A stretch of DNA of 45,510 bases from Actinomycetota bacterium (GCA_018268675.1 JAFDWB010000017.1:1-45510), one strand, 5' to 3'. Counted from the first letter of the stretch, positions 11,950-39,657 are shown. A program made the numbers and translations. Notes: generated by a model from the sequence alone, not told the origin.

Positions 11950-12821
11950 TCCTCGTCACCGCCGCCCACGGGACCCAGGCCCGCCGGCTGATCCCGCGGC
12001 TGGCCGCGGCCGGGACGCCGGTGCGGGGACTGCGCCGGGCGGGCGATGCGGAGGAGGTCCGCGCTCTGGGGGCGAGCGAGGTGATCGTCGGCGATGCCGC
12101 CGACCCCGAGGTGCTGGCGCGGGCGATGCGCGGCGTCACCGCCGTCTATCACGTCGGCCCCACCGCCCATCCCTGCGAGGCCGAGATCGGGGTCGGCGTC
12201 GTGAACGCCGCGGCGGCCGCCGGGGTCGGGCACTTCGTCTACGCCTCGGTCCTGCACGCGCGGATCAGCGCCCTTTACAACCACCGCGCCAAGCTCGTCG
12301 TCGAGGAGCAACTGGTCGGGGCCGGGATGCCGTTCACGATCCTCCAGCCCGCCGACTTCATGGAGACGCTGAACTACAGGCGGGCCTTTCGCGACGGCGT
12401 CTTCCGGCTGATCTGGAGTCTCGAGCGGCGCCAGGCGCTGGTCAGCGTCGAGGACCTCGCCGCGGTCGGCGCCCGTGTCCTCACTGAGGGTGAGACCCAC
12501 TTCGGCGCGACCTACGAGCTCAGCTCGGCCGGCTGCTGGACCGCCCATGAGATCGCCGCCGAGATCGGCCGACTGGCCGGGCGCGAGGTGGTCGCCGAGC
12601 GGCTCGACGTCGAGGCGGTCCTTGGTCTCTACGGGCACGACGAGTACGGGGAGGAGGGCGAGCGCTACCGGCGCGACTTCTTCGATGCGCTGATCCGCTG
12701 GTACGACAACCACGATTTCGTCGGCAACCCGTGGGCGCTGCGGACGCTACTCGGCCGCGAGCCGCTCGACCTGCCCGCTTTCCTCGCGGCCCGCCTCCCC
12801 GCGCTCGAGGCCAGGCCGTGA
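11946..12821 (+). CDS. NmrA-like/atypical SDR NAD(P)-binding protein
   Basis: A 291-residue protein of the atypical, extended SDR group. It opens with MILVTAAHGTQARRLIPRL in the position of the GxxGxxG loop, although that loop lacks most of the glycines. GDAADPEVLARAM, FVYASVLHARISAL and FTILQPADFMETL follow the NmrA/isoflavone-reductase layout. Start is TTG in a TTGA overlap with the cupin. The poor glycine loop could mean weak or altered cofactor binding, as in the regulatory NmrA protein, or a reductase or epimerase. Function open. Confidence 0.7.
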   Translation: MILVTAAHGTQARRLIPRLAAAGTPVRGLRRAGDAEEVRALGASEVIVGDAADPEVLARAMRGVTAVYHVGPTAHPCEAEIGVGVVNAAAAAGVGHFVYASVLHARISALYNHRAKLVVEEQLVGAGMPFTILQPADFMETLNYRRAFRDGVFRLIWSLERRQALVSVEDLAAVGARVLTEGETHFGATYELSSAGCWTAHEIAAEIGRLAGREVVAERLDVEAVLGLYGHDEYGEEGERYRRDFFDALIRWYDNHDFVGNPWALRTLLGREPLDLPAFLAARLPALEARP

Positions 12822-14011
12822 GCGCCGGGCCGCTCGCCGGAACCCGGGTGGTCGACGCCGCGACGCTGCTGGCCGGACCGTTGATCGCCACCCGGATGGC
12901 CGACTTCGGCGCCGAGGTGATCAAGGTCGAGCACCCCCGCGGAGACACCTTGCGCGAGCTCGGCTGGAACGACGGCGGCACCTCCGTCTACTGGAAGACG
13001 GCCTCCCGCAACAAGCGCTGCTGCACTCTCGACCTCGGCTTACTCGCAGGCCAGGAGCTGATGCGCGAACTGGCGCGCGGTTGTGACGTTCTGATCGAGA
13101 ACTTCCGCCCCGGGACGATGGAGCGCTGGGGGCTCGGATGGGAGACCCTGCACGATCTCAATCCCGGCCTGATCATGGTCCGGGTCACCGGCTTCGGCCA
13201 GGACGGGCCCTACAGCGCCCTGCCCGGCTTCGGCACGCTGGCCGAGGCGATGAGCGGCCTCGCCTCGGTACTCGGCGACCGCGACCGACCGCCGATCGTG
13301 CCGCCGCTTCCGGCCGCCGACGCGATCACGTCGGCGGAGGGAGCGTTCGCGGTGATGGCGGCGCTCTACCGGCGCGACGCGGGTGAGGGCGGGGGACAGC
13401 TGATCGACCTCAGCCTGCTCGAGTCGATGGTCTCCTTCATGGCCCCACAGGTCAGCGCTTACGACCGCCTCGGGCTGGTCGCCGAGCGCGATGGCAGCCA
13501 GGCCCCGTTCAGCTCCCCGCGTGGCGTCTACCGCACCTCGGACGACGGCTGGCTGGCGCTCTCGACCAGCGCCCAGAGCGTCGCCGATCGCCTTTTCGCC
13601 GCGATCGGGCGGCCGGAGCTCGCTGAGGATCCCCGCTTCTCCTCGACCGTCGCCCGACTCGAGCACCGCGAGGAGGTGGACGGCTATATCGCCGAGTGGG
13701 TCGCCGTGCGCCCCCTGGCGGAGGCGGTCGACACCCTGCGCGACGCCGACGTCGCCGCCGCCCCGGTCTACACCGCCGCCGACGTGGCAGACGACGAACA
13801 CCTGCGAGCCCGCGGGGCACTGGTCCGCGTCCCCGACCCAGAGGGCGGCACGGTGCTGATGCACAACGCCCTGCCGCGCCTCTCCGAGACGCCCGGCGAG
13901 GTGCGCGAGGCGGGCCGACCACTCGGGGCCGACAACGATTACATCTATGGCGACCTGCTCGGGCTCGGCCCCGACCGGCTTGCCGAACTGAACCGCGAAG
14001 GGGTCATCTGA
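12818..14011 (+). CDS. CaiB/BaiF-type (class III) CoA-transferase
   Basis: A 397-residue class III CoA-transferase. Family signatures are VVDAATLLAGPLIATRMADF, GAEVIKVEHPRGD, NKRCCTLDL, LIENFRPGTMERWGLGW, VTGFGQDGPYS and GQLIDLSLLESM. These enzymes move CoA from an acyl-CoA donor to a carboxylic acid, which is the usual way to activate a carboxylated product without ATP. Start is GTG in a GTGA overlap with the NmrA-like gene. The next gene in the operon was a CitE-type lyase that has decayed. A second, divergent CaiB relative lies at 25325-26524. Confidence 0.9.
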   Translation: MSAGPLAGTRVVDAATLLAGPLIATRMADFGAEVIKVEHPRGDTLRELGWNDGGTSVYWKTASRNKRCCTLDLGLLAGQELMRELARGCDVLIENFRPGTMERWGLGWETLHDLNPGLIMVRVTGFGQDGPYSALPGFGTLAEAMSGLASVLGDRDRPPIVPPLPAADAITSAEGAFAVMAALYRRDAGEGGGQLIDLSLLESMVSFMAPQVSAYDRLGLVAERDGSQAPFSSPRGVYRTSDDGWLALSTSAQSVADRLFAAIGRPELAEDPRFSSTVARLEHREEVDGYIAEWVAVRPLAEAVDTLRDADVAAAPVYTAADVADDEHLRARGALVRVPDPEGGTVLMHNALPRLSETPGEVREAGRPLGADNDYIYGDLLGLGPDRLAELNREGVI

Positions 14012-14054: not shown

Positions 14055-14753
14055 CTTCCGGGTTCGTCGGCAAAGATGCTCGGCAAGGCGTCCGGCCTCC
14101 CCGCCGACGAGCTGATCATCGACCTCGAGGACGCCGTGGCGCCGAGCGCCAAGGACGAGGCGCGGGCACTGGTCGTCGATTCGGTCGGCTCGGCCGCCTT
14201 CGCGGGGAAGCGGCCGGGCGTGCGAGTCAACGCGCCGCGCAGCCGCTGGTGCCATCTCGACATCGCGGCGATCGGCGCGGCGCCCGGGGCGGTCGGGACG
14301 CTGGTCGTATCCAAGGTCGAGGGGCTCCGGCGACTCGCCTTCGTCGACCGCCTCCTCGCCACCGCTCGATTCGCTGATCGTCGGCTACGCCGACCTCACC
14401 GCCTCGCTCGGCCTCCGCCGCCGCCGACCTCGATCTATGCCGCCCGGGCCAACGGCCTGCAGGCGATAGACGGCCCCCACCTCGGTGTCGCGGTCGACTC
14501 GGATTTCGAAGCGGCGGTCGCCCGCGCCCGAGATCTCGGCTTCGACGGCAAGTGGGCGATCCACCCGTCCCAGCCCGAACACCTGAACGAGGCTTTCAGC
14601 CCGACCGCCGCAGAGCTGAGCTGGGCGAGGGCCGTGCTCGACGCGCTCGAGGCCGCCGAACGGGAGGGCGGCCGCGGCGCCGTCGCGCTCGAGGGCGAGA
14701 TGCTCGACGAGGCGGTCGGAGCGGCCGCACGTCGCATCCTGGCACGCGCCTGA
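14055..14753 (+). pseudogene. HpcH/HpaI-CitE family lyase, decayed
   Basis: The stretch PGSSAKMLGKASGLPADE.. then IDLEDAVAPS and the end SKWAIHP-like segment (FDGKWAIHPSQ) match citrate-lyase beta/malyl-CoA lyase-like proteins. Three lesions show. First, the usual N-terminal strand is not encoded: no start codon lies in frame between an upstream stop at 13989 and the ATG at 14076, already inside the domain. Second, after VDRLLA (14360) the homologous PLDSLIVGYADLTASLG is in the next frame, from 14362. Third, the frame returns at about 14437 (YAARANGLQAIDGP) with some 15 residues missing between. An open frame spans 14076-14753, but it would encode a scrambled active-site region. Sequencing error is possible but would need several events. 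Confidence 0.7.
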
Positions 14754-14874: not shown

Positions 14875-15135
14875 ATGGGTCTTGAGTCGTTGATGCCGAT
14901 GCCGCCATCGGGAGATCGGATCTCGGTCGAGCGCAAGCCGGTCGATGAGACTTGTCCCAAGTGCGGTTCTGGCAATGTGGCCCGCTATCCAGTGGCAAAT
15001 TTCATTGGTCCACGGATGGTGACCAAGTGCCAGGACTGCTTCCACAGCCTGTCTGTGGACGTGCCGACCGAGGAAGACCACTGGCCGCCGTGGCGGTCGG
15101 CGACGCTCGATTGGCCGACGTCACGGGCCGGCTAG
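14875..15135 (+). CDS. small zinc-ribbon protein, possible carboxylase accessory subunit
   Basis: An 86-residue protein with two CxxC pairs 24 residues apart, CPKCGSGN and CQDCFH, forming a zinc ribbon. No signal peptide or membrane segment. ATG at 14875 follows GGAAGAGGGAG; the in-frame ATG at 14824 lacks a site and overlaps the promoter element. It lies immediately upstream of HyuB (15182). Acetone and acetophenone carboxylases contain a small zinc-binding subunit besides the HyuA/HyuB-like ones, so this may be its counterpart, though it is far shorter than the acetone carboxylase gamma subunit. That role is inference. Confidence 0.7.
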   Translation: MGLESLMPMPPSGDRISVERKPVDETCPKCGSGNVARYPVANFIGPRMVTKCQDCFHSLSVDVPTEEDHWPPWRSATLDWPTSRAG

Positions 15136-15153
15136 TCGTTCAGAGCGCGGCAA

Positions 15154-15163
15154 ATTTTCTAAC
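15154..15163. promoter_or_regulatory. ATTTTCTAAC element, right member of the inverted pair
   Basis: Exact reverse complement of the 10-mer at 14844-14853. It lies 18 bases before the HyuB start. The two copies bracket the zinc-ribbon gene about 310 bases apart, a spacing that would suit a repressor bridging two sites, or two separate promoters. Confidence 0.45.
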
Positions 15164-15181
15164 TGTGAACAGAGAGGGAAG

Positions 15182-17152
15182 ATGAGTACGACGATTGACG
15201 GCGGCGGGGTCGCGGAGCGCGGGATCGACGCGCCGACCGCACGGGCGCGCTACGGCTACGACCTGATCGACCTGGAGACGCTGCGGTATGCGGTGATCGA
15301 GGTCTCGCGGGACATGATGGACGCCCTGATGCGAAGCGGCTTCTCGCCGATCGTCCGCGACATCCGCGACTGCACCGCCTGCGTCCACATGAGGACGGAC
15401 GCCGGCTGGGAGATGATCGCCTCGACCGAGGGGTGCGTCCAACACGCTTTCACCTCGCAGCACATCGTCAACTTCGCGATGTCGGAGTGGGACGAGGAGG
15501 CGCTGCGGCCCGGCGACACCATCTTCGTCAATGACCCCTGGCGCGGCGCGATCCACTGTTCCGATGTCAACGTGATCCGTCCCGTCCTGGTCGACGGCAG
15601 ACCCGAGTTCATCCTCCACACGACGAGCCACGTCGCCGACCTCGGCGGCGCCACCCCAGGCGGTTTCGCCCAGGGGGTCGAAACGTGTTTTGAGGAGCAA
15701 CTCAAATTTCCGCCGATGCTGCTCTACGCCGAGGACGTCCCGGTCCGCTCCACTTTCAACTACCTGCTCGAGAACAACCGCGTCCCGGCGATGATGCTGG
15801 GCGACCTGCGGGCCCTCGCCGGCAGCCTCGCGGTCGGCGAGAAACGGCTCAAGGAGTTGATCGAGCGCTACGACGTCGATCAGGTCCGGGCGGGCAGCGC
15901 CTACGGGATGGACATCACCGAGGCGGCGATGCGGGCTGGGATCAGGCGCCTGCCGGATGGCGACTACCGGGCCGAAGACATCATCGACGACGATGTCATC
16001 GTCCAGGAGCCGATCCCGGTCGTGATGACGGTCAAGGTGCGCGGCGACGAGCTCGAGATCGACTACTCGGAAAGTGCCCGCCAGCCGCGCGGCAGCGTCG
16101 GCTCGGCCTGGGTCGAGGCGGTGCGGCCGATCGTCGGCGCGAAGATGCTGCTCGACCCATCTTCACCGGTCAACAGCGGCACGCTGCGACCGATCCAGGC
16201 GATCATGCCGCCCGGCTCCACCGTCCTCGTCCTGCCGCCCGCCAGTTGCTCCGACCACGTCGAGATCGGCGGTCGCGCCGTCGACCTGATCACCACCGCG
16301 CTCGGCAAGGCGGATCCCGAGCATGCGATCGCGGCCGACTGCGGCCACGCCGGGATGCTCGCCGTCTCCGGCATCGACGGTCGTCCCGGCCGCGAGGGCA
16401 CCCCGTGGGCGTCGTTCGCGTTGCCCGGCGGCGGTTGGGGCGCGACCTGGAAAGGCGACGGGCTCTCCTGCTGCATCATCGCCCTCGGCACCGGGCCGCG
16501 GACCTCGGTCTGGGAGCACATCGAGGAGGAAGCGCCACTGCGGATCTGGCAGCACGAGCTGATGCCAGACTCGGCCGGCGCCGGCAAGCACCGGGGCGGG
16601 CTCGGCGGCATCTACGCGGTCGAGGCGATCTCACCGACGATCATCTCGATCGTCGGCGACCGCTCGCGGGTCGGTGCCCCGGGCGTGGCCGGCGGTGGCA
16701 CCGGGATGCCCTTCTACGCCTGGCTGTCGGAGGACTTCAAGGGCGATACCGACCCGACCGACCTGCGCGGCTGGACGCCGATGTTCGGGATGCTCGACGA
16801 GAACGGGATCCCTGACCCGGACGGCGGCGCCTTTTCAGCCGGCACCCTCTACCCCTCGGCCAAGGTGCCGCTGATGACGCTGCAGCCCGGTCAGGCCGTG
16901 CGCCTCGTGATCGGCGGTGGCGGCGGTTGGGGCGACCCGCTGGAGCGCGATCCGGAGGCGGCGCTGGCCGACGTCGAAGACGGCTACACGAGCGCCGCCT
17001 TCGCCGAGCGCTACCACGGCGTCGTGGTCCTCGACGAGGAGCGGCTCGACCTCGACGCGACCGAGTCCCTGCGGGCCGAGCTGCGCGCCAAGCGCGAGGT
17101 CGGCGAGTGGTCGGTCCCGACCGCCTGCCCGCCCAGCTGGCGCGTCGACTGA
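15182..17152 (+). CDS. HyuB-type hydantoinase/oxoprolinase/ketone carboxylase subunit
   Basis: A 656-residue complete HyuB-family protein. The metal/substrate region NDPWRGAIHCSDVN lies near residue 116, HTTSHVADLGGATPGG near residue 147, MMLGDLRALAGSL near 204, and GGGGGWGDPLERDPE near 580. ATG at 15182 has AGAGAGGGAAG upstream. HyuB works with HyuA (20695-22767), which supplies ATP-dependent phosphorylation; here three genes (thiolase and two acyl-CoA dehydrogenases) separate the two subunits. With the zinc-ribbon gene just upstream, the arrangement favours a ketone-carboxylase-like role over a hydantoinase, since no hydantoin or amino-acid genes are near. Substrate unproven. Confidence 0.9.
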   Translation: MSTTIDGGGVAERGIDAPTARARYGYDLIDLETLRYAVIEVSRDMMDALMRSGFSPIVRDIRDCTACVHMRTDAGWEMIASTEGCVQHAFTSQHIVNFAMSEWDEEALRPGDTIFVNDPWRGAIHCSDVNVIRPVLVDGRPEFILHTTSHVADLGGATPGGFAQGVETCFEEQLKFPPMLLYAEDVPVRSTFNYLLENNRVPAMMLGDLRALAGSLAVGEKRLKELIERYDVDQVRAGSAYGMDITEAAMRAGIRRLPDGDYRAEDIIDDDVIVQEPIPVVMTVKVRGDELEIDYSESARQPRGSVGSAWVEAVRPIVGAKMLLDPSSPVNSGTLRPIQAIMPPGSTVLVLPPASCSDHVEIGGRAVDLITTALGKADPEHAIAADCGHAGMLAVSGIDGRPGREGTPWASFALPGGGWGATWKGDGLSCCIIALGTGPRTSVWEHIEEEAPLRIWQHELMPDSAGAGKHRGGLGGIYAVEAISPTIISIVGDRSRVGAPGVAGGGTGMPFYAWLSEDFKGDTDPTDLRGWTPMFGMLDENGIPDPDGGAFSAGTLYPSAKVPLMTLQPGQAVRLVIGGGGGWGDPLERDPEAALADVEDGYTSAAFAERYHGVVVLDEERLDLDATESLRAELRAKREVGEWSVPTACPPSWRVD

Positions 17153-17168
17153 CCGAACGGTGGCGGCG

Positions 17169-18368
17169 ATGGCGGCAGGTCGACGGGCGGTGATCGTCGA
17201 TATCGCGCGCAGCGCCGTCGGCCGGGCCCACAAGGGCTCGCTGGTCGACGTCCGTCCCGATGACCTCGCGGGCTCGGTGCTGCGCTCGCTGCTCGACCTC
17301 TACCCAGAGATCGAGCCCGGGGCGATCGACGACCTGGTCTGCGGCTGTGCGTTCCCCTGGGGCGAGCAGGGCTACAACGTCGGTCGTCTGGTCGGCCTCC
17401 TCGCCGGCCTGCCCGACCGCGTCCCGGCGATGACCGTCACCCGCCTCTGCGCCTCCTCGCTGCAGGCGCTGCGGACCGCCGCGCACGCGGTCGAGCTGGG
17501 CGAGGCCGAGACCGTCGCCGTTGTCGGCGTCGAGTCGATCTCGCGGGTCGGCCGCGGGATCGAGCTGGCCGAGCCGAACCCGCTGCTCGACCCGGAGGCT
17601 CCCGGCGAGACGCTGGCCGCCGTCTTCATGCCGATGGGGATGACCGCGGAGCTGGTCGCCGACGATTACGGGGTCAGTCGCGCGCGGATGGACGCCTTCG
17701 CCCAGCGCTCCCAGGAACGGGCCGTCCGGGCGGGGGAGAGCGGCTTCAGCGCCCGCGAGATCCTGTCCTTCGAGCTGCCCGACGGGACGGTATTCGCGAC
17801 CGACGAGGGGCCGCGGCCGACTTCGACCGCGGAGAAGTTGGCGGCGCTCGAGCCAGCCTTCCGGAAGGGCGGCAAGGTTACCCCGGGCAACTCCTGCGCT
17901 CTCAACGACGGCGCCGCTGCGGCGTTGGTGATGTCGGCCGAGCGCTGCGCCGAGCTGGGGCTCGAGCCGCGCGCCGAGATCGTCTCCTCAGCGGTCTCGG
18001 CGGTCGATCCGTCGCGGATGGGAATCGGCCCGATCGAGGCGATCGACCGGGCGCTCGAGCGGGCCGGGGCGGGCATCGACGATCTCGACGTCTTCGAGCT
18101 GAACGAGGCCTTCGCCGCCCAGGTGCTGCCGGTCTGCGACGAGGTCGGGATCGACCCCTTCGACGACCGCGTCAACCCGCACGGCGGTGCGATCGCGGTC
18201 GGCCACCCGTTCGGGATGACCGGCGTGCGGATCATGGCGACGCTCTTGAACGGGCTGGACCAGCGCGACGGCGAGCTCGGCCTGGAGACGATGTGCGTCG
18301 GCGGCGGCCAGGGCCAGGCGATGGTGGTCCGCCGGCTGGCCGGGCCGCAGCGAGTGGCGGTGGCATGA
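17169..18368 (+). CDS. thiolase (acetyl-CoA acyltransferase)
   Basis: A 399-residue thiolase. The acylation Cys is in VTRLCASSLQAL near residue 90; NEAFAAQ, GHPFGMTGVR and CVGGGQG supply the Asn/His/second Cys set near the C-terminus, so all catalytic residues are present. ATG at 17169 is used; an in-frame GTG at 17160 is an alternative and there is no clear ribosome site for either, consistent with coupling to HyuB, which stops at 17152. Thiolysis of a beta-ketoacyl-CoA would logically follow carboxylation of a ketone and CoA activation. It overlaps the next gene by ATGA. Confidence 0.92.
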   Translation: MAAGRRAVIVDIARSAVGRAHKGSLVDVRPDDLAGSVLRSLLDLYPEIEPGAIDDLVCGCAFPWGEQGYNVGRLVGLLAGLPDRVPAMTVTRLCASSLQALRTAAHAVELGEAETVAVVGVESISRVGRGIELAEPNPLLDPEAPGETLAAVFMPMGMTAELVADDYGVSRARMDAFAQRSQERAVRAGESGFSAREILSFELPDGTVFATDEGPRPTSTAEKLAALEPAFRKGGKVTPGNSCALNDGAAAALVMSAERCAELGLEPRAEIVSSAVSAVDPSRMGIGPIEAIDRALERAGAGIDDLDVFELNEAFAAQVLPVCDEVGIDPFDDRVNPHGGAIAVGHPFGMTGVRIMATLLNGLDQRDGELGLETMCVGGGQGQAMVVRRLAGPQRVAVA

Positions 18369-19477
18369 GCGTCACCGGGACCGATTCGACGCTCGAACTG
18401 CTGGCCGACGTCGCCGACGAATTCGCCCGCCCGGACGCCGGGCGCGCGCGCCGGGTGCGCGATGCAGGCGGTCGCATCGACCACGAGGCCTGGGAGAGGA
18501 TCGCGGCGGCCGGCTGGATCGGGATCACGGTGCCGGAGGAGCTCGGCGGGGCCGGGCTGGGGTCGCGGGCGGTGGCGATCGTCGCCCGCCGGCTCGGCTA
18601 CGCGGCCTTCCCCGAGCCCTTCGTCGCCGTCGGCGTCCTCGGCCCCGAGCTGCTGGCGGCCGCCGGAGAGAAGGCCGGGGAGACGCTCGCGGAAACGATC
18701 GAGGGCAGGCTTCTCTGCGCCGTCGCGAGCCAGGGCTTCGAAGGTGGGCTTGGTGAGGCGGCGGTCGAGGTCGAGCATGAAGACGGTGCGCTGAGCGGTC
18801 GCGCCCGCTTCCTCGGCCTCGCCGACGCCGACCTCTACCTGGTCGCGGCGCGGGAGCCGGCCGGAATCGGCATCCACGCGGTGCCCGCCGATGCCGCCGG
18901 TCTCGAGGCGACGATCGAGCTGCGCGCCGACGGGGCCGCCGACGTCCGGCTCGTCCTCGATCGGGTCGCGGCCGACTCGTTGATCGCCGCGCCCGACGGC
19001 GGCCCGGCGCTCGCCGGAGCCCTGGATGCGGCGCGGCTGGCCCTCTCCGCCGAGCTGGTCGGCTTGGCCGAACGGGTGCTCGAGATCACCCTCGACTACC
19101 TGCGCCAGCGCAGACAGTTCGGTAAGCCGATCGGCGCACAGCAGGCGTTGCAGCACCGCGCCGTCGACCTCTGGATCCAGGTCCAGCTGGCCGGTGCGGC
19201 ACTGGAGGCCGCAATCGACGTCCTCGAGGCCGGGGCCGATTCGGAACGCCGCGCCGCCGCCACCTCCGGCGCAAAGGCCCGCGCCGCCGCTGTCGCGCGC
19301 CGCGTCTGCAACGAGGCACTGCAGCTCCATGGAGCGATCGGCTTCACCGACGAGTACGAGCTTGGCATCCACTTCAATCGGGCGCTGGCGCTGGCGCCCT
19401 GGCTCGGCACCGCCGTCGAGCACCGCCGCCGTTTCGCCGAGCTGTCCCCGATCGCGGGCGGTGAAGGGGCGGCATGA
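18365..19477 (+). CDS. acyl-CoA dehydrogenase, subunit-type 1
   Basis: A 370-residue FAD-dependent acyl-CoA dehydrogenase. IGITVPEELGGAGLG is the N-terminal helix-domain signature, RRQFGKPIGAQQALQHR the C-terminal one, and LHGAIGFTDEYELG the FAD-contacting end. The middle beta-domain is short and lacks the usual TEPxAGSD motif, as in partner subunits of heteromeric enzymes. It overlaps a second, full-motif acyl-CoA dehydrogenase by ATGA. In actinobacterial steroid catabolism such adjacent pairs form alpha2beta2 enzymes in which one subunit lacks part of the site; a similar complex is likely here. Confidence 0.9.
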   Translation: MSVTGTDSTLELLADVADEFARPDAGRARRVRDAGGRIDHEAWERIAAAGWIGITVPEELGGAGLGSRAVAIVARRLGYAAFPEPFVAVGVLGPELLAAAGEKAGETLAETIEGRLLCAVASQGFEGGLGEAAVEVEHEDGALSGRARFLGLADADLYLVAAREPAGIGIHAVPADAAGLEATIELRADGAADVRLVLDRVAADSLIAAPDGGPALAGALDAARLALSAELVGLAERVLEITLDYLRQRRQFGKPIGAQQALQHRAVDLWIQVQLAGAALEAAIDVLEAGADSERRAAATSGAKARAAAVARRVCNEALQLHGAIGFTDEYELGIHFNRALALAPWLGTAVEHRRRFAELSPIAGGEGAA

Positions 19478-20655
19478 GCGAGGTTTTCGGAGTCGAGCAG
19501 GAGCGCGACTGGAACGAGCTCGAGGACGCCGAGTTCGCGGCGATCGTCCGCGACTGGGTGAGCGAGAACTACCCACCCGAGCTCCGCTTTCCGTCCCGGC
19601 GGCTGTTCTGGGCCGAACAAGGCGAGTGGGTCAAGAACCTGGCCCGCAAAGGCTGGATCGCGCCCGGCTGGCCGCGCGAGTTCGGCGGCATGGGCCTCTC
19701 GCCGGTCAAGCAGGTGCTCTTCGCCGAGCAGTTGGAGCGCCAGGGCGTCGCCCGCTTCCAGGATCACGGCATCACCCAGGTCGGCCCGGTGATCCAGCGC
19801 TTCGGCACCGCCGAGCAGCACCGCCGCTGGCTGCCCCCGATCCTCGCCGCCGAGGACATCTGGGCGCAGGGCTACTCCGAGCCGGAGGCGGGGTCCGACC
19901 TGGCGAGCCTGCGGACCCGGGCCCGCCGCGACGGCGACGAGTACGTCGTCGATGGCCAGAAGATCTGGACCACCCTCGCCCACGACGCGACCCACATCTA
20001 CTTCCTCGTCCGCACCGACCCCGATGCGCCGAAGCCGCAGGCCGGAATCAGCTTCCTGCTCAGCCCGATCGACGCGCCGGGGATCACGGTGCGACCGATC
20101 CGCGACATCTCCGGTCATGAGGAGCTCTGCGAGGTCTTCTTCGACTCGGTCCGGGTCCCGGTCGAGAACCGGGTCGGCGCCGAGAACCAGGGCTGGACGG
20201 TCGCCAAGTCGTTGCTCGGCCACGAGCGGATCAACGTCGGCAGCCCGAAGCAGCCGGGTTACGCGCTGGAGATGGTCGCAGCCGTCGCCCGCGAGCGCGG
20301 CCTGCTGGAGGACCCGATCTTTCGCGACCGCCTCGCCCAGCTGCAGCTCGACGTCGCCGATCTCGGTGCCGCCTACACCCGCTACATCGCGCAGCTCGCC
20401 CGCGGCGAGGAGATCGGCCCCGACGTGTCGATGCTGAAGATCTGGGCGACCGAGACGGTGGCCGCGATCGCCGACCTGATCATCGAGGCGGGCGGCGCCG
20501 CCGGGGGCATCGCCGGCGAGGTGGCGATCGGCTCGGGAGAGCTCGATCTGCTGGGAGCTTTGTACAAGGCGCGGCCGGCGATGATCTACGCCGGCTCGAA
20601 CGAGATTCAGCGCAACATCATCGCCACCGCGGTGCTCGGGTTGCCCCGTGCCTAG
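19474..20655 (+). CDS. acyl-CoA dehydrogenase, subunit-type 2
   Basis: A 393-residue acyl-CoA dehydrogenase that keeps the FAD/substrate motif GYSEPEAGSDLASLRT near residue 130 and KIWTT in the beta-domain, plus KARPAMIYAGSNEIQRNII at the C-terminus. ATG at 19474 overlaps the stop of its partner. Together the two would introduce an alpha,beta double bond in a bulky acyl-CoA. The following HyuA has its own ribosome site after a 39-base gap, so it may also be translated independently. Confidence 0.92.
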   Translation: MSEVFGVEQERDWNELEDAEFAAIVRDWVSENYPPELRFPSRRLFWAEQGEWVKNLARKGWIAPGWPREFGGMGLSPVKQVLFAEQLERQGVARFQDHGITQVGPVIQRFGTAEQHRRWLPPILAAEDIWAQGYSEPEAGSDLASLRTRARRDGDEYVVDGQKIWTTLAHDATHIYFLVRTDPDAPKPQAGISFLLSPIDAPGITVRPIRDISGHEELCEVFFDSVRVPVENRVGAENQGWTVAKSLLGHERINVGSPKQPGYALEMVAAVARERGLLEDPIFRDRLAQLQLDVADLGAAYTRYIAQLARGEEIGPDVSMLKIWATETVAAIADLIIEAGGAAGGIAGEVAIGSGELDLLGALYKARPAMIYAGSNEIQRNIIATAVLGLPRA

Positions 20656-20694
20656 CGATGGCCCCGAAGGGTTTCGAACGAGGAGGAGTTGACG

Positions 20695-22767
20695 ATGAGT
20701 GATGGAAACGGACAGTCCGCCTGGTGGGTGGGGATCGATGTCGGCGGGACCTTCACCGACGTCGTCGCGATCAACCGCGCCACCGGCGAGGTGCGTGACC
20801 ACAAGGTGCTGACGACCAAGGGACGGCAGGAGGTCGGCGTGCTGGAAGCGCTGCGCGAGGCGGTCGACGACGTCACCGAGGTCGGCGAGATCGTCCACGG
20901 CCACACCTCAGGCATCAACGCGGTGCTGAGCCGGCAAGGAGCGAAGACCGCGCTGCTCGCGACCGCCGGCCACCGCGACCTGCTCGACATCGGGCGGATG
21001 GACCGGGCCTTCGGCGAGAGCCTCTACGACCCGACCTGGATGCGCCCGCACCAGGTGCGGCCGATTGTCCGTCGCCGCGACCGCTACGGCGTGCGCGAGC
21101 GCAGCGGTCCCGACGGCGCCTCGGTCCTCGACCTCGACGAGGAGCAGGTGCGTGAGATCGCCGCTGAGCTGAAGGAGCGGGGGATGGAGGCGGTCGCCGT
21201 CTGCTTCATCAACTCCTACGTCGCCCGCGACCACGAGGAGCGCGCCGCCGAGATCCTCCGCGAAGAGCTGCCCGACGTCTACGTGCAGACCTCCGGCCTC
21301 TACCCGGTGACGAAGGAGTCCGAGCGCGCCAACACGGTCGTCTTCGACGCCTATGTCGGGCCGATCGTCACCGATTACCTGCACCGCCTGGAGCGGGACC
21401 TACGCGATGCCGGGTTCGGCGGGACGCTCTGGATCATGACCATGAACGGTGGCGTCGGCTCGGTCGCCGAGACCTCGAAGGCACCGGTCTTCCAGCTCGT
21501 CTCGGGCCCGGTCGGCGGAGTCAGCGGCGGCGTCCACCTGACCCGCACCAGTGCCGGGGGCGCCCAGAACCTGCTGACCATGGACGTCGGCGGGACCAGC
21601 ACCGACGTCGCCGCGATCCAGGCCGGCGAGACGCCGATGACCGACCTCTGGACCGAGGAGCACGGGCTGACGATGGCGATCCCGGCGGTCGACGTGACCA
21701 GCGTCGGCTCCGGCGCCGGCAGCATCGCCCACATCGACTCGCTGGGGGCCCTCAAGGTCGGGCCGGAGTCGGCCGGCTCCGAGCCCGGCCCGGCCTGTTA
21801 CGGCCGCGGCGGCACGCGGCCGACGGTGACCGACGCCTGCGTCGCGCTGGGGATCCTGCAGCCCGACCTGTTCGCCGGCGGCGCCCTGCCGCTCGACGTC
21901 GGGGCCGCCGCGACGGCGCTGGCCGAGCTCGGCTCACAGCTCGGCATGTCGATGTTGGAAACCGCCAACGGCACCTACCGGCTCGCCTGCTCGGACATGG
22001 CGGCCTCGATCCGCTCGATCTCGACCTACCGCGGCCTCGACCTGCGCGAGTTCGCCCTGCTCGCCTTCGGTGCCGCCGGGCCGATGATGGCGGGCCAGGT
22101 GGCGCGCGAACTTCAGCTCGGCACGGTGATCGTTCCCGAGCGCCCGGGCGGCTACTCGGCCTTCGGTCTCCTCACCAGCGATATCCGCGTCACCAAGGCG
22201 CGCTCGCCGATGAAGACGGTCGCCGCCTACGGGGCCGAGCAGCTCGAGGCCGACTACCGCGAGCTGGAGGAGGAAGCGATCGCCGACCTCGTCGCCCAGA
22301 ACGTGAAGCGGGAGGACATCGTCCTGCAACGCGAGTTCTTCGCGATGTACGCCGGGCAGACCTGGGACAACCGGCTGCCGCTGGCCTCCGGAACGCTTGA
22401 TGACCAGCGGTTGGAGGAACTGTCCGAGGGGGTTCACGAGTTCTATCGCGGCCGCTACGGCTTCAGTGCCGGAGAGCTGCCGATCGTGCTCAGCGCGCTC
22501 GAGGTGACCGGGGTCGCGCGGCGCGAGCCGCTGCGCCCGGGCGACGCGGCGGCGGCCACCGGCGACGCGCTGCTGCGCCACGCTCCGGTCCGCCTCGACG
22601 CGATCGACAGCGACGAGGTGCCGGTCTACGCGCGCGAGCGGCTGCCGGTCGAGACGCCGATCGAGGGGCCGGCGGTGATCGTCGAGGACTACGCGACGAC
22701 CCTGATCGACGCCGATTCGAGCGCCAAGGTAGCGGCCTCCGGTGAGCTCGTGATCACCCTCTCGTGA
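20695..22767 (+). CDS. HyuA-type ATPase subunit of hydantoinase/oxoprolinase/ketone carboxylase family
   Basis: A 690-residue HyuA-family protein with the ASKHA-type ATP-binding fold: GIDVGGTFTDVV near residue 11 is the phosphate-1 motif, TMDVGGTSTDVA near residue 296 the second, and VGSGAGSIAHID the adenosine loop. VHGHTSGINAVL is the conserved N-domain turn. ATG at 20695 is chosen because GAGGAGG lies 7 bases upstream; a TTG at 20689 is in frame but inside that site. In acetone and acetophenone carboxylase the homologous subunit phosphorylates the substrate and/or bicarbonate. It pairs with HyuB at 15182 (same operon). The stop overlaps the next start by GTGA. Confidence 0.92.
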   Translation: MSDGNGQSAWWVGIDVGGTFTDVVAINRATGEVRDHKVLTTKGRQEVGVLEALREAVDDVTEVGEIVHGHTSGINAVLSRQGAKTALLATAGHRDLLDIGRMDRAFGESLYDPTWMRPHQVRPIVRRRDRYGVRERSGPDGASVLDLDEEQVREIAAELKERGMEAVAVCFINSYVARDHEERAAEILREELPDVYVQTSGLYPVTKESERANTVVFDAYVGPIVTDYLHRLERDLRDAGFGGTLWIMTMNGGVGSVAETSKAPVFQLVSGPVGGVSGGVHLTRTSAGGAQNLLTMDVGGTSTDVAAIQAGETPMTDLWTEEHGLTMAIPAVDVTSVGSGAGSIAHIDSLGALKVGPESAGSEPGPACYGRGGTRPTVTDACVALGILQPDLFAGGALPLDVGAAATALAELGSQLGMSMLETANGTYRLACSDMAASIRSISTYRGLDLREFALLAFGAAGPMMAGQVARELQLGTVIVPERPGGYSAFGLLTSDIRVTKARSPMKTVAAYGAEQLEADYRELEEEAIADLVAQNVKREDIVLQREFFAMYAGQTWDNRLPLASGTLDDQRLEELSEGVHEFYRGRYGFSAGELPIVLSALEVTGVARREPLRPGDAAAATGDALLRHAPVRLDAIDSDEVPVYARERLPVETPIEGPAVIVEDYATTLIDADSSAKVAASGELVITLS

Positions 22768-23711
22768 GCGCCCCATACCACGCCGCGGTGCTCGTCGGAG
22801 ACCTCGACGAGGCTCTCGACAATTTCGAAGATGTACTCGGAATTGCATTCCGGGAACCTGACGAACGGGCCTTACGCCCGTTCGATCGGGACGCGGACGG
22901 GAGAGGGCCAACGGGGCCGGTGCGCTTCGCCTTCTCGGTCGGGAGCTCCCCCCACGTCGAGCTGATCGAGGCCCAGGAAGGGGGCCTCTTCGGTGCCGCC
23001 ACGGGCCTTGGCGTCCACCACGTCGGCGCCTGGAGAGAGGGGATGGATCGGGTCCGCGAGGAGCAGGCGGAAGCCGGCCTGGAGACGGCTGCTCGCTTCG
23101 CTGATCCGGACGGGGTCGAGCGGGTGTTCTACGCCGGCGAGCGGCCCCTGATGCTGGAGACGGTCAACGCTCGCCTGCGGCCGGACTACGAAGCCTGGTT
23201 GGCCGCCGGGTCGCCGCGCCCGAGCGCCTCTCCAGCGCGCGGAGGGACCTACCACCTGGCTTACCTCGTTGCGGACATCGCGGCGGCAATGCCACTTTAC
23301 GAGCGGCTTCTAGGGGTCGAGTTCCGGCCGACGATGAAGCGCCCGATGATCACCGGCGTCGGTCCCGAGAAAGGCGATCCGAGCGGCGAGAAGATCGAGG
23401 TCGAGTTCACCTACTCGCTCGGCGAGCGGACTCCTTACGTCGAGCTGATGCAGATGCGCGACGACGACTCGGTCTTCGGCCGCGCGGTCGGCGAGGGCTT
23501 CCATCACCTCGGAATCTGGTCGCCCGATCCACAGGTGGCGCGGGCCGCGCAGCTGGCGGCGGGCGCCGAGATCGAGGCCCGCTACTTCAGTAAAGACGGG
23601 GTCGAGCGCGTCTGTTTCGCCAGCTTCGGCGGCGTTCGCGGCGAGTTCGTCAACGAAGCGATCCGCCCGCAGACCGAAGAATGGCTGCCCGTCGGCAGCC
23701 ACCGCGGTTGA
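22764..23711 (+). CDS. two-domain VOC (glyoxalase/dioxygenase fold) protein
   Basis: A 315-residue protein with two vicinal-oxygen-chelate repeats: the first starts YHAAVLVGDLDEALDNFEDVLG, the second YHLAYLVADIAAAMPLYERLLG near residue 156. In each, His near the start, His in the VHHVG/FHHLG strand and Glu near the end (MLETVN, EFVNE) could form the metal site, so both halves may bind metal. Start is GTG in a GTGA overlap with HyuA. Candidates are an extradiol-type dioxygenase, epimerase or lyase. The stop is followed by the first real gap (92 bases) in this run. Confidence 0.8.
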   Translation: MSAPYHAAVLVGDLDEALDNFEDVLGIAFREPDERALRPFDRDADGRGPTGPVRFAFSVGSSPHVELIEAQEGGLFGAATGLGVHHVGAWREGMDRVREEQAEAGLETAARFADPDGVERVFYAGERPLMLETVNARLRPDYEAWLAAGSPRPSASPARGGTYHLAYLVADIAAAMPLYERLLGVEFRPTMKRPMITGVGPEKGDPSGEKIEVEFTYSLGERTPYVELMQMRDDDSVFGRAVGEGFHHLGIWSPDPQVARAAQLAAGAEIEARYFSKDGVERVCFASFGGVRGEFVNEAIRPQTEEWLPVGSHRG

Positions 23712-36626: not shown

Positions 36627-37942
36627 TGGCCTGGACCCCTCCAACGTTGTCACCCGAGGCCGCGTGATTCAGTAGACGCCTCGCTCTCCCGGGCATCCTC
36701 CCAGGTCTCCCTCACCTCCTTCGGTGTGCGGTGGCCGAGCCCCGAGTGGGGTCGGTGGTGATAGGTCTCGACGTAGGCGGCGATCGCCTGTCGAGCCTCC
36801 TCGAGGGTCTCGAACTCAGAGCGCCAGACCAGGCGCTCCTTCAACTTCGAGAACCACGACTCGATGAAGGCCTGGGACTCCGGGTCGCGGTAGCCGCCGC
36901 GACGGTGGGTGATGCCGAGTCCGGCGAGATGGGCACGGAACCCACGCGATGTGTAGGCGGTGCCGTTGTCCGTGCCCAGCGTCAGTCGACCCGGCTCGAT
37001 CGAATGGGCGGCGACGGCGGCCTCGACGACCGCCCCGGCCTCCTGGCGGCGGCAGCGCAGGTCGAGGGCGAAGCCCGGGATCTCCCGGGTGCAGCAGTCG
37101 ACGATCGCGTTCAGGTGGCACCAGCCGTGCTCGGCCACCCAGACCGAGGTCATGTCCATGTGCCGGAGCTGGTCGGGGCGCTCGACCCGGAAGAAGCCCG
37201 GTCGACGGCCGGAGGGCCGGTGGCGCTGCAGCAGGCCCTCGGCCCGCATCACCCGCTGCGCCCGCTTGCGGGAGATCGGCCGCTCGATCTCCCGGCTCGT
37301 CAGGGCGGCCACCATCCGGGTGCCGTCGGTCGGGTCGGCCCGGGCGACCTCGACGATCGCCCCGGTCGATCGTCCCGGTGGCCGGCCGCCCCTGGGCGGC
37401 CGGCCTTGTCTTCGGGGTGCGGTAGATCGCCTGGCGGGAGATCTGCAGGACGCGCGCCACGACGGCGACCTTGCGGCCGCCGGCGACGAGTCGGCGGGAC
37501 CGGGCGACGCGCTCCCTCACTCCCGGCCCCGCAAATGCTTCCCCCGCGATGTCGAGCTCCTAGGTCTTGCGACCGAGGGCGCGCCCCGGCTCGCCGATCT
37601 TCTTGCGGAGCTCCTTCTCCGCCCGGCGCTCGTCCTTGCCCGCGAGCGCGGCCTTGCCGCCCTCGAGGATCTTGTCGCGCCAGGAGTGGTAGAGGGCCTC
37701 CGCCACGTCGTGCTCCCGACAGACGTCCCTCACCGACCGGTCGCCCCTCATCCCGGCGATGACCATCTCCAGCTTCTGCTGGGCACCGCGTTGCTTGCGT
37801 TGCTCTGCCGACTCGATCTCCTTGGTGGTCGAGCGGCCATCCTGGGTGCCGTCCCGGATGACTCGTCGGGGCTCCGCCCCTCCTCGGCATCCGGGCCTAA
37901 TCAGCCCAGGTGGGTGTCAACGCGGGGACGGGGTCCAGGCCA
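36627..37942 (-). mobile_element. IS3-family element, decayed, with terminal inverted repeats
   Basis: The left end begins TGGCCTGGACCCC (36627-36639); the right end, read inward from 37942, begins with the same 13 bases, and both continue with CGTTG-[TA]-CACCC after a short divergent part. The length of ~1316 bases suits IS3 elements, and the enclosed genes are IS3-type orfA and orfB on the minus strand. No clear target duplication is visible at either side. The transposase is interrupted by a stop and a frameshift, so the copy should be inactive. Confidence 0.75.
36650..37833 (-). pseudogene. IS3-family transposase (orfA + orfB), stop and frameshift
   Basis: The minus strand reads STTKEIESAEQRKQRGAQQ then MVIAGMRGDRSVRDVCREHD (orfA helix-turn-helix) to ALGRKT, then TAG at 37562-37560, then ELDIAGEAF.. 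in the same frame: the position is usually a Tyr codon, so this looks like a nonsense change. The frame continues through RVLQISRQAIYRTPK to TIDR, where an extra G in a GGGG run (about 37370) shifts to AIVEVARADPTDGTRMVAAL and the integrase core. That core keeps its DDE set: HMDMTSVWV, GTDNGTAYTS and SQAFIESWFSKLKERL. The shift is in the +1 direction, unlike the -1 programmed frameshift of IS3 elements. Confidence 0.78.
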
Positions 37943-38044
37943 GCTTCGGCCTGCGACCTCGACGTCCTCGGCAGGGTCGGCGTCGTCTGCGGAGCGGCCG
38001 GCGGCGCGGTGCTGCCACATAGTCGGCGCTCGACAGGTTCACCG

Positions 38045-38397
38045 GTACCGGGGGTGGCCATCAGGAGCGGACCGCCGCTGTCGCCATTGCAGGTCGCGTA
38101 TCGGTAGGCTCTCGGCGCCCGTAACGGCGCCGCGATCCGCCTCGCGACGACGCAGACCTGGATCGAAGGCACGGCGGCCGTGATGGCCGGTTGGGGGCTG
38201 ACGACCCCGAACGGGGAACCCGCGGAAACGCTCCATGCGGGCGAATCGGTGGTGCAGGCCCCAACACAGCGGCATCCCCCCCGTACCGGTATGTAGCTGG
38301 GCACGAGCCAGGTGAGATTCGGGTCGACTGCGACCCGGCTGACCGAGGAGACGGTCTTTTCAGGGGAGGCCCAGTCGACATTTCCGGTGCCGGGCAC
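38045..38397 (-). pseudogene. trypsin-like serine protease remnant with an inverted middle segment
   Basis: On the minus strand 38397-38295 reads [18 protein letters not shown] then [12 protein letters not shown], which is the protease region before the catalytic Asp. At 38108-38045 the same strand reads YATCNGDSGGPLLMATPG, the active-site serine block. The part that belongs between them, [16 protein letters not shown] then [15 protein letters not shown], is instead on the plus strand at about 38112-38275. Flipping that segment would restore the normal order. The expected NDxA motif reads NGAA, so the catalytic Asp is also lost. N-terminus (His57 region) and C-terminus are absent. Confidence 0.65.
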
Positions 38398-38398
38398 G

Positions 38399-38511
38399 GC
38401 ATCGGCGCCGAGATCGAGCGCATCTCGGCCGATCAGATCAACGACGCCTGGGAGCGCGTGCTGGGCTCCGACATCCGCTACCGCTTCGTGATCGACAATT
38501 CGACGCTATAG
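38399..38511 (+). pseudogene. C-terminal tail of a zinc alcohol dehydrogenase
   Basis: The plus strand reads [20 protein letters not shown] then [15 protein letters not shown] and a TAG stop. This is the characteristic end of NAD(P)-dependent cinnamyl-alcohol-dehydrogenase-type MDR proteins (IxxAYERMLKSDVRYRFVID-like). Only ~36 codons remain and the join to the protease remnant at 38398 is abrupt, so a rearrangement removed the rest of the gene. Confidence 0.6.
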
Positions 38512-38641
38512 GCCGACGCTCTGTCGAGGCCGAGAGTCCGTCCCGCCAGCTTAGAACCTGTCTCAAAACCCGCGCGCACGCCCGGCGGCGCCGCACACAC
38601 TTCGCTGGGCGTCGTCCTCAGTCGGGTTCTTAGGTAGGTCC

Positions 38642-39598
38642 TTAGCTGTAAGACCCGACCACGTTGTTCCGCTTCAGCTCGCCGAGGCGGGCTCCGGGCG
38701 ACCTGTGGCTGAGTGAGCCGTGTGGTCTGTGCCAGTTATAGAACTCGAGCCAGCCGGATAGTGCCGCCGTCCGCTCGGCCGAGGAGCGATAGATCGCCCC
38801 GTAGGCCCAGCCGCCGAGCATCGTGCGGATGAACCTCTCCGCCTTGCCGTTGGTGCGCGGCCGATAGGGGCGGGTGCGGAGGTGGCGGACCTTCAAGGCC
38901 TTGCAGGCGATCGCGTGCACGGTCGAGCGATAGGCGCCGCCGTTGTCGGTCATCAGCCGCTCGACCCTGATCCCGTGGCCGCGGTAGAAGGCCACGGCCC
39001 GGCGCAGGAAGGCGACACACGTCTTCGCCCTCTCGTCGCCCAGGACCTCGACGTAGGCCAGGCGGGTGGCGTCGTCGACGCAGACGTGGACGAACTCCCA
39101 TCCGGCGCCGCGGGCGTGCTTGGTGCGCCTGCCGGTCGCCCGGTGCCCGGCGCCGCGCTCGATCCGCACCAGCTTCTTGACGTCGATGTGGATCAGCTCT
39201 CCCGGCTTCTTTCGCTCATAGCGGTTGGGCGGCTCTGCCGGCTCCAGGCGAGAGAGCTTGCCGAGCCCGATCCGCCGCAGGATCCCCGAGACCGTCGAGA
39301 GCGCCATGCCCAGGCACTCGGAGATCTCCGCGCCGGTCATCCGCACGCGCCGCAGGGCGGCGATCGCCTCGACCGTGCCCTCCTCGGTGCGGTTGGCCAC
39401 CGTCCCCGGGGCCGAGCTGCGGTCCACGAGGCCGGCTTCGCCCTCCCCCCGGTAGCGGTCTACCCACTTGCGGGCGGTGCGCTCGCTCACTCCGGCGGCC
39501 TCGGCCGCCTCCGTGAGCGACCAGTCCTCCTCGACGACGCGCCTCACCATCGTCAGTCGCCCCTTCGGACCGAAGGGGGCATTAGCGTGAATCTTCAT
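38642..39598 (-). CDS. IS481-family transposase
   Basis: A 318-residue transposase, intact. The N-terminal helix-turn-helix is GRLTMVRRVVEEDWSLTEAA then EAAGVSERTARKWVDRYRG; the second DNA-binding part has ISECLGMALSTVSGILRR. The integrase core has the DDE triad in ELIHIDVKKL, RLMTDNGGAYRS and GKAERFIRTM. ATG at 39598 is chosen over 39631 because AAGGAGA stands 6 bases upstream and the family start MKIHANAPFGPKGR follows. The C-terminus RNNVVGSYS is encoded by the left terminal repeat. Looks functional. Confidence 0.92.
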   Translation of the reverse strand: MKIHANAPFGPKGRLTMVRRVVEEDWSLTEAAEAAGVSERTARKWVDRYRGEGEAGLVDRSSAPGTVANRTEEGTVEAIAALRRVRMTGAEISECLGMALSTVSGILRRIGLGKLSRLEPAEPPNRYERKKPGELIHIDVKKLVRIERGAGHRATGRRTKHARGAGWEFVHVCVDDATRLAYVEVLGDERAKTCVAFLRRAVAFYRGHGIRVERLMTDNGGAYRSTVHAIACKALKVRHLRTRPYRPRTNGKAERFIRTMLGGWAYGAIYRSSAERTAALSGWLEFYNWHRPHGSLSHRSPGARLGELKRNNVVGSYS

Positions 39599-39657
39599 CC
39601 GGGTTCTCCTTGGTGCTGGGTGGATCGACACCCCCAGCCTCCAAGGAGACCCGGATG
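39596..39657. repeat. inverted repeat carrying a ribosome site and ATG on both strands
   Basis: CATCCGGGT..CTCCTTGG..GCTGGG and its complement form arms of about 25 bases with few mismatches. As a result both strands read AAGGAGA[A]CCCGGATGAA: one is the transposase start, the other opens outward at 39655 as MNNVVRNYI and stops within the right terminal repeat. The structure could be a remnant of duplication at the IS end or could limit transposase translation when read through from outside. Confidence 0.6.

Follow-up and report, generated by a model that had tools for sequence, protein, structure and literature searches.

A zinc-ribbon partner of a distinct HyuA/HyuB lineage and its possible role in ketone carboxylation

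What does a HyuA/HyuB enzyme do when its genes stand beside one for a small zinc-ribbon protein and among genes of coenzyme A (CoA) metabolism? The question is raised by a 45,510-nucleotide stretch of an Actinomycetota genome (GCA_018268675.1, JAFDWB010000017.1:1-45510; hereafter the window), in which a zinc ribbon of 86 residues lies directly ahead of HyuB, and a thiolase and two acyl-CoA dehydrogenases (ACADs) are placed between HyuB and HyuA, all on the plus strand (Table 1). A first-pass annotation had described this gene content and arrangement correctly, and had proposed that the locus carboxylates a larger ketone for CoA-dependent degradation. To our knowledge, no more than two kinds of biotin-free ketone carboxylases that depend on ATP have been characterized, and automatic annotation cannot tell ketone carboxylases from lactamases and hydantoinases. 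Judged by its sequence, the ribbon-linked HyuA/HyuB set (HyuAB) represents a third lineage with a putative zinc subunit, which is neither acetophenone carboxylase (Apc), acetone carboxylase (Acx) nor a plain hydantoinase.

A search for close relatives of the window HyuB returned eight loci (Pseudonocardia acidicola, P. sulfidoxydans, P. dioxanivorans CB1190, Candidatus Frankia californiensis, Pseudofrankia, Aeromicrobium, a Betaproteobacteria metagenome-assembled genome (MAG) and SZAS-9), and all eight (8/8) have a homologous ribbon, with about 48-69% identity, in the same place; most of them are ordered HyuA-HyuB-ribbon. A ribbon profile, searched against whole genomes independently of HyuAB, matched 3 of the 396 genomes in the phylum sample, 29 of the 297 in the Pseudonocardia family and 2 of the 369 in the class of the Betaproteobacteria MAG. 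A plasmid search added one more ribbon locus, on a Burkholderia plasmid, and a plasmid search with HyuA gave no match at E <= 1e-120. Given that HyuA and HyuB adjoin the ribbon in 37 of the 38 ribbon-found loci (some of them near-duplicates), the ribbon is rare and occurs almost exclusively in HyuAB loci, and this genome-wide association rules out its standing beside HyuB by chance. It is a faithful partner of one HyuA/HyuB branch across Actinomycetota and Betaproteobacteria, and the conservation on which the first-pass annotation had staked its proposal is strict for this branch. The usual gene orders are HyuA-HyuB-ribbon, as in acxABC, and ribbon-HyuA-HyuB; the former is found in Pseudonocardia, Frankia, Pseudofrankia and Aeromicrobium. 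Spacing between the ribbon and HyuAB is tight, often 4-61 bases or overlapping. The single exception (L115; G607:C17, ~8460) is a lone ribbon gene, probably a remnant: it lies near neither HyuA nor HyuB, while both occur in related loci that share its neighbours.

The HyuB subunits of these loci share a second mark. We counted, on the alignment, the residues that separate the conserved RGG and GGG motifs (473-581 in the window HyuB); this linker length took the place of a motif-based measure of the HyuB C-terminal tail, which was unreliable. All 47 ribbon-linked HyuB measured carry an insert of ~30 residues, with a linker of 107-115 residues (109 in the window). The ketone carboxylases have linkers of similar length (ApcD 107, AcxA 110), whereas they are shorter in CapB (80), in N-methylhydantoinase (77) and in the nine HyuB that lack a zinc partner (70-86). 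Three paralogues in the genome of the window are intermediate (95-98), and these are exactly the ones with a C-terminally fused PF08882 (Acetone_carb_G) domain, which was found only after the linker lengths had been measured. Since the ribbon-linked, ApcD/AcxA and fused-gamma HyuB are all long, a long linker and a small zinc subunit go together in both lineages, which suggests that the insert may be the docking site of the ribbon. Together, the small zinc partner and the HyuB insert offer a simple sequence rule for splitting the HyuA/HyuB superfamily, one that names a distinct lineage with members in culturable genera, Pseudonocardia among them. Of the fused gamma domains, one (L033, at C87:212011) apparently retains few of its cysteines.

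The ribbon itself has no obvious relatives. It stays below cut-off for every Pfam and NCBIfam family, has no significant match among solved structures, and matches none of the chains of 5L9W; PF08882 was absent from the matches of the window ribbon and, at E up to 1, from the families most often matched by nine ribbons, and the ribbon profile shows no similarity to the fused acetone-carboxylase gamma domains. The idea that it is the known zinc subunit of the carboxylases thus found no backing in any test. Its AlphaFold2 (AF2) model (predicted local distance difference test, pLDDT, 73) shows a small hairpin ribbon whose tail is poorly ordered, and a fold search with it gave nothing with E < 0.001. 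Short zinc ribbons have many different roles, and this one could be an assembly, metal-delivery or regulatory protein kept beside HyuAB rather than a subunit. The small model, the lack of a significant structural match and the retention of a ribbon without HyuAB at L115 would all suit such a role, but we consider it improbable: gene order, tight spacing and the long conserved non-cysteine tail (DHWPPWR in the window's subtype) are better suited to a stoichiometric subunit, and the matching insert in HyuB suggests a place for it to dock. From the gene neighbourhood, we infer that the ribbon is a physical subunit of HyuAB.

Where does this set belong in the superfamily? Both large subunits were placed with quick trees whose references were taken from PDB alignments and have long branches. 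Even with the insert columns removed, ribbon-linked HyuB stand together on one side of a branch whose Shimodaira-Hasegawa-like approximate likelihood ratio test (SH-aLRT) support is 100, and ribbon-linked HyuA form one clade (SH-aLRT 97; 34 rows, counting as ribbon-linked both the HyuA of the window and the second one of a ribbon locus on contig C92 of the same genome). In the free trees, the ribbon clade is placed close to N-methylhydantoinase and the unlinked paralogues, among hydrolases and away from Apc and Acx. Joining it to Apc, Acx and their kin is not rejected by the approximately unbiased (AU) test (p-AU 0.35 for HyuB and 0.52 for HyuA, the carboxylase-joined HyuA tree scoring slightly above the free tree), and neither is joining it to N-methylhydantoinase (p 0.47, HyuB). 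On these sequences, phylogeny alone does not appear to settle the function of the clade. In these trees, HyuA and HyuB form a clade of their own rather than taking the place inside a hydantoinase or oxoprolinase clade that the first-pass annotation had named as counting against its proposal; a grouping with Apc and Acx is allowed but not shown.

In composition, the ribbon set most resembles Acx of Xanthobacter autotrophicus (5SVB/5M45; PMC5543143), which likewise combines a single HyuA-type kinase with a single HyuB-type metal subunit and a single small zinc subunit. The ATP motifs and metal site (E/D, H, D, H) of Acx are also present in the window, its long HyuB insert is common to ribbon-linked HyuB, and its A-B-small gene order is that of most ribbon relatives, although the window itself has the order ribbon-HyuB-(cassette)-HyuA. 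The two differ in that Acx gamma belongs to PF08882, to which the window ribbon is unrelated, in that the window HyuA and HyuB score much closer to hydrolases, and in the ~90-residue C-terminal arm of the Acx HyuB-type subunit, which the shorter window HyuB lacks. Apc of Aromatoleum aromaticum (5L9W; PMC5214803) also combines a long-insert HyuB with a small zinc subunit, and its pathway continues via CoA activation and thiolysis, as we propose for the window. However, Apc has two distinct HyuA-type subunits (alpha and alpha') and an epsilon subunit, and the single HyuA per ribbon set is closer to Acx; the cysteines of Apc gamma (Cys22/25/75/78, spacing ~49) are also unlike the CxxC-x21-CxxC of the unrelated window ribbon. 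Caprolactamase (CapAB/OplAB; 6YRA; PMC8453981) shares the HyuA/HyuB pair, the ATP motifs and the metal-site residues with the window but has no small zinc subunit, and its HyuB linker is 80 residues against 109. N-methylhydantoinase (7HK5), the best-scoring solved relative of both window subunits, is one fused chain with no ribbon and a linker of 77. Members of the hydantoinase/lactamase class have two subunits only and no small zinc subunit (PMC5214803), and all those tested have linkers of 70-86. Because the ribbon set lacks defining features of Acx (the gamma family) and of Apc (a second HyuA and the gamma type), and departs from plain hydantoinases in its small partner and long linker, we filed it under none of these classes. 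A small CxxC/CxxC ribbon also accompanies a (de)carboxylase in the case of VdcD/ShdD, whose partner enzyme is UbiD-like and not HyuAB. The match of the window ribbon to this subunit of phenolic acid decarboxylase (7AE5) is weak and non-significant, and homology is not established.

We see about an even chance that ribbon-linked HyuAB is an ATP-dependent ketone carboxylase that feeds CoA-ester formation and thiolysis. In this scenario, the ribbon, HyuB and HyuA would be three parts of one ATP-dependent enzyme with its own lineage in the hydantoinase/ketone-carboxylase superfamily. HyuA would phosphorylate the ketone enol and bicarbonate, and the activated species would pass to the HyuB metal site (D60, H125, D128, H150), where a beta-keto acid would form. 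The ribbon may dock on HyuB at or near the insert, in the role played by gamma in Acx and Apc. The beta-ketoacyl-CoA could then be made by the CaiB CoA-transferase in the window, or by an AMP-ligase in many relatives, and be cleaved by thiolase, and the ACAD pair would carry on beta-oxidation.

The neighbours of ribbon loci may fit the scheme described for acetophenone, which runs through alcohol oxidation, carboxylation, CoA activation and thiolysis (PMC5214803). Counts over 14 loci from the subclade to which the window belongs gave, as the commonest neighbours, short-chain dehydrogenases/reductases (SDRs; 13), aldehyde dehydrogenases (9), AMP-dependent acyl-CoA ligases (9; immediately after the ribbon in several loci), ACADs (6), CaiB (4) and thiolases (2). 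Pseudonocardia and Frankia have the order HyuA-HyuB-ribbon-SDR-thiolase-ligase, and two betaproteobacterial loci have a zinc alcohol dehydrogenase between the ribbon and HyuA. The neighbours are CoA-linked and alcohol/ketone-redox genes, a point in favour of the first-pass proposal.

Several points weigh against a carboxylase. Among solved structures, both subunits match N-methylhydantoinase and caprolactamase best, with Apc and Acx far below, and caprolactamase scores highest, below its cut-off, among NCBIfam models. By the sequence and structure comparisons that we ran, the ribbon does not seem to be homologous to gamma, and the link between a long insert and a zinc subunit rests on two independent lineages at most. 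The metal-site residues are conserved throughout the ribbon-linked HyuB clade and match those of both CapB (D41/H99/D102/H124; PMC8453981) and Acx (E89/H150/D153/H175; PMC5543143). The counterpart of AcxA His111 is a histidine in 24 of 43 ribbon-linked HyuB, but also in CapB, and is not discriminating; no residue tested appears to separate carboxylases from hydrolases. A predicted structure of HyuB (pLDDT 55) was not used. Finally, CoA genes also accompany IaaCE, a hydrolase of the HyuAB family that works within a CoA pathway (PMC8453981, PMC5214803).

These observations leave room for an ATP-dependent hydrolase acting on a lactam, an imide, a hydantoin-like ring or a ring carried on a CoA thioester, as in the hydrolysis of 2-oxoindoleacetyl-CoA by IaaCE. 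Here HyuA would activate a carbonyl, HyuB would hydrolyse it, the ribbon would only stabilize the complex, and the acid product would enter CoA metabolism. We rate a hydrolase as less probable than a carboxylase, yet as a serious contender. The closest solved relatives are hydrolases, the ribbon clade falls among hydrolases in both quick trees, and the CoA genes do not exclude it, because IaaCE acts inside a CoA pathway (PMC5214803, PMC8453981). On the other hand, the hydantoinases, CapAB and N-methylhydantoinase that have been described lack both the small zinc subunit (PMC5214803) and the insert, and the tree that joins the ribbon clade to the carboxylases is not rejected. In the 14 close loci, moreover, carbamoylase, racemase and amine-handling genes are not among the common neighbours, nor are aminotransferases or amidases among the 25 commonest neighbour families. 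In the window, the scanned genes include no racemase, carbamoylase or oxoprolinase-type gene, in agreement with the first-pass annotation.

If ribbon-linked HyuAB is a carboxylase, it may, more tentatively, constitute an undescribed third class of ATP-dependent ketone carboxylases that work without biotin. Such a class would have come about when a HyuAB of the hydantoinase side gained an unrelated zinc ribbon and a docking insert in HyuB, in parallel to the gamma subunits of Acx and Apc, and Actinomycetota and some Betaproteobacteria could use it on alicyclic or other larger ketones. Should an unrelated ribbon have been recruited to the same place, the question of why Acx and Apc need a zinc subunit far from the active site would become testable. 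Among open-licence papers we found no study of ribbon-linked HyuAB, nor any such work on Pseudonocardia.

In none of the other loci read does a thiolase/ACAD cassette lie between HyuB and HyuA, which there stand next to each other. Conservation of the gene order was therefore not borne out, and the order in the window is a local rearrangement of a common gene set rather than a conserved operon type. Its absence from the other loci, and the origin of the contig in a 95-contig assembly, would also be expected of an assembly error in a draft genome; we think this very unlikely, given the clean junctions, intact frames, several stop/start overlaps and uniform base composition. Overlaps of 4 bases occur at three junctions (thiolase/small ACAD, small ACAD/large ACAD and HyuA/VOC), as in a coupled operon, and the run from ribbon to HyuA is translationally coupled. 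The large genes of the run have a GC content at third codon positions (GC3) of 0.87-0.94, and a Shine-Dalgarno-like ggaagaggg lies upstream of the ATG of the ribbon gene. The operon probably also takes in the CaiB and damaged CitE-like genes upstream and the VOC gene downstream. The CitE/HpcH-like gene carries its expected SLIVGYADLTASLG motif in frame +1, and is either a decayed gene or an assembly error.

Table 1. Features of the window around the ribbon-HyuAB run, and fused gamma domains elsewhere in the same genome (G000)
Feature	Position	Strand	Evidence and remarks
CaiB/BaiF-type (family III) CoA-transferase	12815..14011	+	PF02515, 389 bits; GTG start at 12815 inferred from domain start
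CitE/HpcH-like lyase gene, apparently damaged	14076..14753	+	~45-50 residues missing, frame change mid-gene
Zinc-ribbon protein, 86 aa	14875..15135	+	CPKC-x21-CQDC, conserved DHWPPWR tail; proposed zinc small subunit
HyuB, 656 aa	15182..17152	+	PF02538, 401.8 bits; metal-site D60, H125, D128, H150; insert at ~residues 505-560
Thiolase	about 17169..18368	+	PF00108/PF02803, TIGR01930 above cut-off; usual motifs RLCASS, GHPFGMTG, MCVGGGQG
Acyl-CoA dehydrogenase, small PimD-like partner	about 18365..19477	+	family scans
Acyl-CoA dehydrogenase, large PimC-like partner	19474..20655	+	family scans
HyuA, 692 aa, ASKHA kinase fold	about 20695..22767	+	PF05378/PF01968; ATP motifs DVGGTFTDV, DVGGTSTDV, GSEPGP
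VOC/glyoxalase-type protein, two-domain	22764..23711	+	PF13669; 4-base overlap with HyuA
Fused Acetone_carb_G domains of HyuB paralogues	C87:51314-51529, C87:212011-212256, C92:65466-65681		

The genome (4.2 Mb) has a large set of family members, with 15 HyuB and 12 HyuA matches. These paralogues had escaped the first-pass annotation, as had a second HyuB at 1-1002 of the window, a C-terminal half cut off by the contig start. The truncated HyuB shares 50% identity with the HyuB of L053, which adjoins a ribbon of the second subtype, and 62% with the HyuB of contig C92. Since the start of C92 holds a HyuB N-terminus in matching orientation, the two contigs might be neighbours. C92 also carries the second ribbon locus of this genome (L038:330-8396), with a ribbon, an LLM-like gene, HyuA, HyuB, HyuA and the start of a further HyuB; because its two HyuA are 82% identical and a further HyuB begins there, we interpret it as a recent tandem duplication. 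Farther along the window, two integrase-core/IS481-type transposase genes (36650-39631) lie near more CoA-catabolism genes, a hint that this may be a catabolic island, mobile or assembled.

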